Shown here: positions 10,972 to 14,006 of the stretch, in pieces | Position numbering within the stretch: position 1 is the first letter of the stretch | Layout of the letters: every line of letters begins with the position of its first letter | Assembly: GCA_017939025.1 (NCBI GenBank) | Contig: JAGBAI010000173.1 | Span: forward strand, 1-21,285 | DNA length: 21,285 nucleotides | Direction: 5' to 3' | Source: Oscillospiraceae bacterium | GTDB lineage: Bacteria; Bacillota_A; Clostridia; Oscillospirales; Oscillospiraceae | The notes under the pieces: model-generated | Told to the model about the DNA's origin: nothing | Database searches by the model: none | What the model saw: the letters and a program-made list of their open reading frames with translations, nothing else | Translations under genes and position numbers: made by a program

Positions 10972-10979
10972 TTTTGGAT

Positions 10980-12314
10980 TTACTTACTCTTCAGTGCCTT
11001 CTTTTCGTCCTTGGTCTTGGCGAAGCGTTCCAGCTCCGGCACCAGGATGATGCAGATCAGCGCTGCGGCGAAGCCGCCGTTGTACAGGCAGAAGCCGCCA
11101 TGGAGGTTGGGCACGGAAGTCACCAGCAGGTAGTGCATAACTGCTGCGATACAGCCATACTGCCAGCCGTACTTATCCGCAATGGGGCTCAGGCCGTTGG
11201 CATAGCACAGGCCCACGCAGATGGCCTGGGCATTGATAGCCAGGGTGAAATCACCGCCCACCAGACCGGACAGCCAGCCAAAGACAGTGGAAGCCACAAC
11301 GTAGCCCAGCATAATGGGCCAGACATTGCCGGGATGGGAACCGGAATTGCAGGTAGACAGCATGCAGAAGATGATGCCGAAGGTAACGCCGTTGAAGGTG
11401 GCACCGATGGCATTGTAGTAGGCCAGAATGAACAGGCCGAACACGCCCACGTTCATCAGGAATACAGAATTGCCGTAGGTGGAAGAGAAATTGGTCACCA
11501 GGCTGGGATCCTTCAGCAGCTGCCAGTAGTCCCTGGGCTTGCACCCCAGCACAAAGGCAAACACCACGCAGGCGCCAAACAGGATCAGGCAGAAGGTATT
11601 GACAATAGCAGGCGAAGCTACCTGCAGCTGCTCACCGGCAGCACCGGCAGGCAGGGCTACGCCCATGGTCTTGAACAGGGTAGCATTCAGGAAGAACGCG
11701 GTCATACCGATGGGCAGAGCGGCGGAATACAGGTCAAAGCCCTTATGTACCTTGGGAGAATTGGCCAGGCCCGCAGGCAGGAAGAAGCCGATGATGGCAC
11801 CAACAAACAGGCTCAGGGCAATGCCGGGCAGGTTGAAGCCCACAACCTCCGCGTGGGGATAGCGAATCATCAGATCGGTAATCAGAGGGGCGATACCGGT
11901 GGAGAACAGCATGGCGTTCACAAGGCCGCCAAACTTTTCCTTCTTGACAATGCCGTAGAGCATGACGCCGAAAACCGTGGGCCACATATTCAGAATGTTA
12001 ATGCCCCAGGAAGCAAAGCCCAGAGTCAGAATAAAGGCCAGGTTGGAAGCATTATTAGGGGTTCCCTTGAAAATGAGGAACAGCGCCAGGGAAATAAAAC
12101 CTACCAGGCCCATGTTCAGGAAGGTGGCGGCGTAGCCGCCGATGGCAAAATAGCTGCAGGTCAGCTTGCTGGGCTGGCTGAGAATCTGCCACAGACCGGT
12201 GAACATGGTATTCCGGTCAGGCATGAGGAAGGCCGCCACCAGGAAGGCACCGGAGAAGAAAGCAAAGAACAGCTTCAGAAAATCCCCTTCAGAAAGTGCT
12301 TTGATTTTTTTCAT
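10980..12314 (-). CDS. DUF1576 family membrane protein, ZTP-riboswitch controlled
   Basis: A 444-residue polytopic membrane protein of the uncharacterised family DUF1576. Start ATG 12314-12312 lies 7 bases after AAGGAG; an alternative TTG two codons upstream is less well placed. Conserved blocks in order are INILNMWPTVFG, STGIAP, SPKVHKGFDLY, then GSHPGNVWPIMLG, ANGLSP with ADKYGW, and VPNLHGGFCLYNGGF. The second three echo the first three, so the protein is a tandem duplication. Transporter architecture is inferred from the many hydrophobic segments and the pseudo-repeat. Its leader carries a ZTP riboswitch and terminator, linking expression to one-carbon or purine stress. It is divergent from a second DUF1576 gene. 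Confidence 0.88.
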   Translation of the reverse strand: MKKIKALSEGDFLKLFFAFFSGAFLVAAFLMPDRNTMFTGLWQILSQPSKLTCSYFAIGGYAATFLNMGLVGFISLALFLIFKGTPNNASNLAFILTLGFASWGINILNMWPTVFGVMLYGIVKKEKFGGLVNAMLFSTGIAPLITDLMIRYPHAEVVGFNLPGIALSLFVGAIIGFFLPAGLANSPKVHKGFDLYSAALPIGMTAFFLNATLFKTMGVALPAGAAGEQLQVASPAIVNTFCLILFGACVVFAFVLGCKPRDYWQLLKDPSLVTNFSSTYGNSVFLMNVGVFGLFILAYYNAIGATFNGVTFGIIFCMLSTCNSGSHPGNVWPIMLGYVVASTVFGWLSGLVGGDFTLAINAQAICVGLCYANGLSPIADKYGWQYGCIAAVMHYLLVTSVPNLHGGFCLYNGGFAAALICIILVPELERFAKTKDEKKALKSK

Positions 12315-12357
12315 AACCAATCTCCTTAATATCTTTTTTGAGGCTGCCCGAAAAATG

Positions 12358-12393
12358 CAAAAAAGGGCAATTCAGCCTCAAACTGAATTGCCC
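12358..12393 (-). terminator. expression-platform terminator of the ZTP riboswitch
   Basis: The minus strand forms an 11-bp stem, GGGCAATTCAG with CTGAATTGCCC, and a TTTTTT tail. The GGGC at the start of the stem is also the end of the conserved ZTP motif CCGTCTGGGC, so ligand-stabilised aptamer and terminator should be mutually exclusive. Confidence 0.92.
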
Positions 12394-12462
12394 AGACGGT
12401 CGGCAGAAAACTCCTACACTCCACCGCGGTGAGATCCGCGAAACCCGTCAGTCATGTAAGAG
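12390..12462 (-). promoter_or_regulatory. ZTP (pfl) riboswitch aptamer
   Basis: The minus strand matches the ZTP consensus: P1 CTCTTACA with TGTAGGAG, the conserved TGACTGACGG directly after the first P1 strand, a P2 hairpin CGCGG/CCGCG followed by GTGGAG, a short linker, then GCCGACCGTCTGGGC. The GACGG of the first domain can pair with CCGTC of the second as the expected pseudoknot. ZTP riboswitches are known to turn genes on when ZTP/ZMP rises because 10-formyl-tetrahydrofolate is limiting. Here the controlled gene is a DUF1576 membrane protein. Confidence 0.93.
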
Positions 12463-12471
12463 GATATTACC

Positions 12472-12500
12472 ATTGTAGTGAAATTATCCCTTTTTGTCAA
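12472..12500 (-). promoter_or_regulatory. sigma-A promoter of the ZTP-DUF1576 transcript
   Basis: The minus strand has consensus TTGACA (12500-12495) and TACAAT (12477-12472), 17 bases apart, immediately ahead of the aptamer. Confidence 0.88.
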
Positions 12501-12680: not shown

Positions 12681-14006
12681 ATGAAACGACTGAACGACCT
12701 GTCCGAAAATGCCTTTTTGAAGCTGTTTTTCCTGCTTTTCAGCTTCTGTTTTCTCATTGCCGCCTTTTTTATGCCCGACCGGGCGGATATGCTTTCCGGC
12801 TATGTCCGGATCCTGTGCAGTCCCACCAAGGCTTCCACCAATTTCTTCTCCGTGGGCGGCTATGCGGCAACATTTTTGAACATGGGCATCGTGGGGCTCA
12901 TCTGTACCGCCCTGTACTGGATCCCCGGTGAAAAAGCAAACCATGCCGCTACCCTCGTCAACATCCTCACCACCAGCTTCGGCTCCTGGGGCATCCATCC
13001 CATGAATATGTGGCCCACCATGCTGGGCGTGCTGGTCTACTGCCTGCGGAAAAAGCGGCCCATCGGCAACTATACCAATGCCATGCTCTTCTCCACCGGC
13101 CTGGCTCCCTTCATGTCAGAGCTGATGCTGCGCTATCCCAACCGGGAACTGGTCGGCTACACCCCCGGCGGCATCCTTCTGGCAGTGGCTGTGGGTCTGA
13201 TCGTGGGACTGTTCCTCCCGGCAGGTCTGGATCACTCCCCCAAGGTACACAAGGGCTTTGCCATTTATTCCGCCGCTCTGCCTGTGGGTATGACGGCCTT
13301 CCTGCTCCAGGGCTTTCTGTACCGGGCCGCAGGACTGGAGCTGCCTGCCGCTGCCGGTGATATCCATGTGGAGTCCCATCTGATCGTCAACACCTTCTGC
13401 ATCACCGTCTTTGTTTTGTTCGTTCTCATTGCCATCGGCATGGGCGTTAAGTTGAAGGAATATCTGGCTTTCATGGCAGATCCAGACCATGTGGTGAACG
13501 TATCCCGGGCCTACGGCAACCGGGTACTGATGCTCAACGCCGGTCTGTACGGACTGTATGTGCTGCTGTATTACAACATCATCGGCGCGGAATTCAACGG
13601 CGTTACCTTCGGCATCATTTTCGGCATGCTCTCCACCTGCAACGCAGGCTCCCATCCCGGCAACGTCTGGCCCATTATGGTGGGCTACGCCCTGGCTTCC
13701 CATCTGAGCCAGTTCGTCGCACAGCTGACCGGCGGCGAATTCACCCAGTATCTTCACGCCCAGGCCATGATGGTGGGCCTGTGCTTCGCCAATGGCCTGA
13801 CCCCCATTTCCGACAAATACGGCTGGAAATACGGCCTGTTCGCCGCCTTCCTCCACTATTACATGGTCACCACCGTGCCCAACCTTCACGGCGGCTTCTG
13901 CCTGTATAACGGCGGCTTCACTGCCACCTTGGTGTGCATCCTCTTCATCCCCGTGCTGGAGCACCACTTCCGTACAAAGAAGCACCGGCTGGAAGCAAGA
14001 GGATAA
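12681..14006 (+). CDS. DUF1576 family membrane protein, divergent paralog
   Basis: A 441-residue paralog of the leftward gene. The start ATG has GGAGG 8 bases upstream. Conserved blocks are GIHPMNMWPTMLG (104-116), STGLAP (138-143), SPKVHKGFAIY (186-196), then GSHPGNVWPIMVG (323-335), ANGLTP (370-375) with SDKYGW, and VPNLHGGFCLYNGGF (399-413). Residues 66-116 and 285-335 align without a gap with 18 of 51 identical by hand count, showing an internal duplication. Many hydrophobic segments indicate an integral membrane protein, probably a transporter. Function of the family is not known. The pair may differ in substrate or in regulation, since this copy has no riboswitch. Confidence 0.88.
   Translation: MKRLNDLSENAFLKLFFLLFSFCFLIAAFFMPDRADMLSGYVRILCSPTKASTNFFSVGGYAATFLNMGIVGLICTALYWIPGEKANHAATLVNILTTSFGSWGIHPMNMWPTMLGVLVYCLRKKRPIGNYTNAMLFSTGLAPFMSELMLRYPNRELVGYTPGGILLAVAVGLIVGLFLPAGLDHSPKVHKGFAIYSAALPVGMTAFLLQGFLYRAAGLELPAAAGDIHVESHLIVNTFCITVFVLFVLIAIGMGVKLKEYLAFMADPDHVVNVSRAYGNRVLMLNAGLYGLYVLLYYNIIGAEFNGVTFGIIFGMLSTCNAGSHPGNVWPIMVGYALASHLSQFVAQLTGGEFTQYLHAQAMMVGLCFANGLTPISDKYGWKYGLFAAFLHYYMVTTVPNLHGGFCLYNGGFTATLVCILFIPVLEHHFRTKKHRLEARG

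Follow-up and report, generated by a model that had tools for sequence, protein, structure and literature searches.

The stretch of DNA analyzed here (21,285 nucleotides of contig JAGBAI010000173.1 from an Oscillospiraceae bacterium; hereafter “the window”) encodes, behind a ZMP/ZTP riboswitch, a membrane protein of the DUF1576 family (gene A), and the A-like members of this family, here called type I, recur beside genes of formate and one-carbon metabolism. We favor, with reasonable rather than strong confidence, the reading that type-I DUF1576 proteins are formate channels or carriers that replace FNT and that are induced by ZMP/ZTP when 10-formyl-tetrahydrofolate (10-formyl-THF) is short. 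We lean only slightly toward the broader proposition that type I is an FNT-independent family of formate channels with an ammonia/urea-channel-like fold, which displaced FNT in the fhs-fchA-folD operons of gut Oscillospiraceae and stands under the control of ZTP, THF, and FTHFS RNAs. The aptamer, its overlap with a terminator, the gene family, the recurrent linkage to fhs-fchA-folD and purE, the presence of FNT in the same slot elsewhere, and the lack of any FNT match in the 40 type-I genomes tested are read from sequence; we infer the ligand response of this leader, formate as the cargo, the inward direction, and a channel rather than a carrier.

Under the favored reading, ZMP and ZTP would build up when 10-formyl-THF runs short and would bind the nascent leader, holding P3 and the pseudoknot and blocking the terminator so that gene A is made. 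Its product, a putative two-repeat formate channel or carrier with no detected sequence relation to FNT/FocA, would let formate enter, and Fhs (formate–tetrahydrofolate ligase) would convert this formate to 10-formyl-THF for purine synthesis. Formate import is the simplest account because it joins a ZTP ON switch, partner enzymes that use formate, and the slot held by FNT elsewhere. The features concerned are as follows:

12472..12500, reverse strand: promoter TTGACA-N17-TACAAT (consensus scan, 11 of 12 positions match)
12383..12465, reverse strand: ZMP/ZTP aptamer RF01750 with P1, P2, P3, and the J1/2–P3 pseudoknot GACGG/CCGTC (Rfam covariance model)
12365..12393, reverse strand: intrinsic terminator of 13 pairs, GGGC in common with P3, U run TTTTTT at 12364-12359
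12321..12327, reverse strand: ribosome binding site AAGGAGA (read from the sequence)
10980..12314, reverse strand: gene A, DUF1576 (PF07613), two-repeat membrane protein of 444 amino acids (Pfam, 230 bits vs. 25)

A preliminary description, made from the sequence alone, had placed a complete ZTP aptamer overlapping an intrinsic terminator between a consensus promoter and a DUF1576 gene, and each of these elements is borne out. The covariance search (cmscan) places RF01750 at 12465-12383 on the reverse strand with 60.8 bits (gathering score 39; E 7e-8), at full length (model positions 1–86 of 86) and with the pseudoknot kept; at gathering scores, no other Rfam family gave a match in the window. 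The 5′ arm of the terminator, GGGCAATTCAGTT, opens with the 3′ arm of P3. Six nucleotides separate the promoter from the aptamer, and transcription would start at about 12465. Taken alone, the consensus scan carries little weight, since shuffled sequences also yield promoter-like sites (5 in the scan vs. 1.0 in shuffles) and terminators (1 vs. 0.6). Folded by itself, the aptamer RNA forms P1, P2, and P3 (−24.2 kcal/mol, an unremarkable energy; z −0.27), and together with the downstream part it refolds to the terminator (−39.3 kcal/mol). A chance aptamer match is ruled out by the score, the pseudoknot, the terminator, and recurrence in related loci. The start codon of gene A is likely the ATG at 12314, judging from the AAGGAGA upstream of it.

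How often DUF1576 genes follow ZTP aptamers, a check raised in the preliminary description, depends on the relatives considered. A scan of GTDB genome contigs gave 94 related loci, of which the best 80 were kept (by title mostly uncultured Oscillospiraceae or Clostridia, some named Faecousia), and these were searched on the same strand, ≤600 nucleotides upstream, using a covariance model based on 28 aptamers. The aptamer lies directly upstream in 41 of the 80 (the match in L004 is weak, E 0.0014); 35 loci have upstream sequence without it, and four have <350 nucleotides upstream. Of all 51 ZTP matches (the window's included), 38 have a terminator that shares P3, its arm beginning at GGGC, and the arms show matched changes (e.g., GGGCAATCCGAT with ATCGGATTGCCC in L076). 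Across the 28 aligned aptamers, the five pairs of the J1/2–P3 pseudoknot are paired in 100% of cells (28/28), two of them with a double change in one sequence each, and seven P1 pairs show double changes; pairing is poor in P2 (55% of cells) and in the outermost P1 pairs (37.5%), which we put down to the alignment. A general link between DUF1576 and ZTP is ruled out by a phylum sample of 398 genomes, where DUF1576 was matched in 40 (37 over the cut-off) and ZTP in 73: by eye, no ZTP place listed, under stricter filters, lay near a DUF1576 place, 30 loci fetched from this sample gave no aptamer (best E 0.88), and 20 of these gave no match to any Rfam family.

The neighboring genes point to one-carbon metabolism. 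In 51 of the 80 loci, fhs, fchA, or folD lies on the same strand ≤4.5 kb upstream of DUF1576; this is so in 33 of the 53 loci with ≥3.5 kb of upstream sequence, and 15 of the remaining 20 carry their own ZTP aptamer. One link or the other, or both, is present in 71 loci. Of the nine with neither (L001, L003, L024, L028, L060, L066, L067, L079, and L080), three (L024, L028, and L060) offer little sequence upstream, and one (L003) carries fchA and folD on the opposite strand. Reference neighbors pass the Pfam cut-offs for FTHFS, FTCD_C, THF dehydrogenase/cyclohydrolase, and AIR carboxylase; NCBIfam cut-offs are reached by Fhs and PurE and missed by FchA and FolD.

In six loci (L006, L008, L011, L017, L018, and L053), DUF1576 and purE are transcribed away from each other, each behind a ZTP aptamer of its own, and the two aptamers stand back to back at a distance of about 168–197 nucleotides; on the purE side, four aptamers have low scores (about 35 bits), at least one of them with an inserted hairpin. 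This arrangement, like ZTP control itself, would suit a transporter of purine nucleobases or nucleosides. We nonetheless regard such a transporter as highly improbable, as purine genes adjoin 6 of 80 loci vs. 51 of 80 with fhs, fchA, or folD upstream, and the structural model of A suggests a small solute.

Other one-carbon RNAs accompany the operon. Rfam was run over the 39 loci where no ZTP is close by or little sequence lies upstream; in eight of these, the FTHFS RNA (RF02981) immediately precedes fhs, and the cluster reads FTHFS RNA-fhs-fchA-folD-DUF1576. In L151 and L170, which are deeper relatives, a THF riboswitch heads a cluster that comprises a FolT-family transporter, fhs, fchA, folD, DUF1576, and 5-formyl-THF cyclo-ligase, with folC in L151 as well; the FolT-family genes of both score over the NCBIfam cut-off, and in the Pfam ranking they come out as general ECF S components. 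Such folate gene clusters, with the THF riboswitch, cyclo-ligase, and folC, could speak for type I importing the cofactor itself (i.e., THF or 5-formyl-THF). Yet because a FolT-family transporter is already present in the same two clusters, a folate cargo is disfavored; the model of A also resembles channels for very small solutes, and FNT fills the slot elsewhere, so that we consider folate import very unlikely. Nothing pertinent emerged from the literature searched on formate operons, parallels in fold, and the FTHFS motif; the fhsA motif, as outlined in PMC11109978, is a different fhs-linked RNA.

A separate observation concerns a trigger-factor-like gene, found near fhs in 10 of the 80 loci and in L165. 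In three loci it heads fhs-fchA-folD-DUF1576 and has a ZTP aptamer directly before it (L005 1184-2276, L038 211-1458, and L071 861-1944); why a chaperone-like protein should belong to a one-carbon operon is unexplained.

The operon linkage distinguishes type I within the wider family (5022 DUF1576 matches among 8000 scored candidates). An even draw of 120 genomes from the same family (the “family sample”) gave a DUF1576 match in 35, and the 40 loci fetched from it comprise 13 of type I, 26 of type II (a distant form roughly 24–32% identical to A), and one of neither; two genomes (G001 and G451) supply loci both to this sample and to the 80-locus set, which therefore overlap. Here fhs, fchA, or folD precedes type I in 10 of 13 loci and type II in 0 of 26, although L157 has folD downstream of type II, and some type-II contigs are short. 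ZTP occurs in one of these 40 loci (L172). In the phylum sample, fhs, fchA, and folD were found in none of 20 type-II loci. Type II has a partner unlike those of type I: a small HATPase (histidine-kinase-like ATPase) gene follows it in 14 of 20 loci (L116–L135; one Pfam-checked).

In a quick tree, deep type-I branches are fhs-linked, L167 excepted; the deepest, L173 (32% identity), carries the operon and scores alike to both types, the tree placing it in type I. The tree implies at least 17 changes in ZTP presence and at least nine in operon linkage; it has SH-aLRT support only, many open forks, and long type-II branches. As the deep branches are fhs-linked, this linkage is probably old within type I and ZTP probably a later, labile addition, frequent among genes located outside the operon.

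The position of DUF1576 in the operon is taken elsewhere by FNT (PF01226). FNT occurs in 64 of the 120 family-sample genomes, in 13 of which it lies, by eye, no more than 10 kb from fhs. Twenty fhs loci were fetched from sister genomes, 13 chosen for FNT near fhs plus seven others, and six of them (L176, L177, L178, L179, L182, and L187) have the order fhs-fchA-folD-FNT; FNT adjoins in another order in L180 and L183. All six slot proteins, including two short forms (about 200 amino acids), score over the FNT cut-off in Pfam, and weak FTHFS RNA matches (under the cut-off) precede fhs in two of these six genomes. We also observed, in L186 (12194-15907), purC- and purF-like genes followed on the same strand, after about 1 kb, by an FNT gene, a parallel to DUF1576 beside purE.

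Presence and absence show the same complementarity. Among 40 genomes tested from the 80 type-I loci, FNT was found in none, and 39 have fhs over the cut-off, some of it fragmentary. In the family sample, 1 of 12 genomes with type I carries FNT, as do 12 of 22 that have type II alone and 63 of the 108 that lack type I (1/12 vs. 63/108, Fisher p 0.0013, not corrected for kinship). Type I and FNT thus share the slot after fhs-fchA-folD and are nearly mutually exclusive, and type-I DUF1576 stands where other genomes have a probable formate channel. Two points weigh against this picture and slightly lower our odds: the two slot proteins scored with NCBIfam matched the FocA and fnt models below the cut-off, and L167 breaks the type-I operon pattern. 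The preliminary description had guessed at a folate, formate, or purine precursor as the compound moved; the operons, the FNT slot, and the FolT-family transporter clustered in two loci narrow this guess toward formate, which is the substrate we infer.

The direction of movement deserves separate weighing. FNT channels work in both directions, and linkage alone carries no direction, so type I might export formate or another one-carbon compound. A ZTP ON switch, however, acts under formyl-THF shortage, a state in which losing formate would be harmful, and PFL-like enzymes were not found in 35 of the 40 type-I genomes, although in the family sample 6 of 12 have them. Export therefore seems unlikely to us. 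With PFL-like enzymes in just 5 of the 40 genomes, many may need formate from outside; enzymes that make no formate also belong to the PFL-like Pfam family. Lack of PFL as a general mark of type I is unsupported in the family sample (6/12 type I vs. 62/108 others) and holds in the 40-genome set only.

The predicted structure of A is confident (pLDDT 94.9), and its two repeat halves align with each other (probability 99.8). Among the matches listed, AmtB, Rh, and urea transporters are the best, with a weak Foldseek score and 7–12% identity; FNT structures, which have an aquaporin-like fold, are absent from those listed and may stand further down. Searches against PDB sequences gave none or chance-level matches only, and a Pfam search of protein A up to E 10 returned DUF1576 alone, with no FNT (PF01226), Amt/Rh, or urea transporter match. 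Two histidines of A, H190 and H405, are invariant at repeat-equivalent places. These features would fit an ammonia or urea-like channel that supplies nitrogen to purine or glycine metabolism. We hold this to be improbable, as the recurrent partner genes act on formate and one-carbon-THF compounds and the histidines are equally invariant in type II, which is without the fhs context.

Gene A has a divergently transcribed neighbor that was absent from the preliminary description:

12681..14006, forward strand: paralogue B, DUF1576, 441 amino acids, 56% identical to A (Pfam, 213.7 bits vs. 25)

No second ZTP match lies between A and B, and no aptamer belonging to B was found. In the tree, its clade consists of second copies of tandem pairs (L026, L044, L048, L059, and L061) and also of solitary genes (L060, L066, L067, and L079); ZTP was not found directly upstream of any member. 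An antisense open frame of 451 amino acids (10974-12329, forward strand) spans the whole of gene A and is probably a by-product of codon usage.

If formate is indeed the cargo of type I, these proteins would represent a second solution to formate uptake, explain how gut Clostridia without FNT supply formate for purine synthesis, extend the ZTP alarmone regulon to transport, and connect a defined gene with formate cross-feeding in the gut. The reading offers a testable function for one type within a membrane protein family of thousands. Neither “DUF1576” nor “PF07613” was found in the literature searched, which lay mostly outside subscription journals; an earlier mention of the DUF1576–ZTP link may exist.

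The leader resembles a known system closely. In the ZMP/ZTP (pfl) ON switch of T. carboxydivorans, as outlined in PMC7337938, ZMP stabilizes the pseudoknot and termination does not occur, and the window shares its aptamer, pseudoknot, and P3-competing terminator. It differs from known ZMP/ZTP riboswitches in the gene controlled, here a membrane protein of unknown function. From the Amt/Rh and urea transporter channels, A is set apart by the lack of a Pfam match, the low identity, and a different gene context; the Amt pore has a histidine pair, and the twin histidines of A could line a pore as well. From FNT (the FocA family), A differs likewise in the lack of a Pfam match, in its best structural matches, and in size—444 amino acids in two repeats vs. 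open frames of mostly about 200–320 amino acids.
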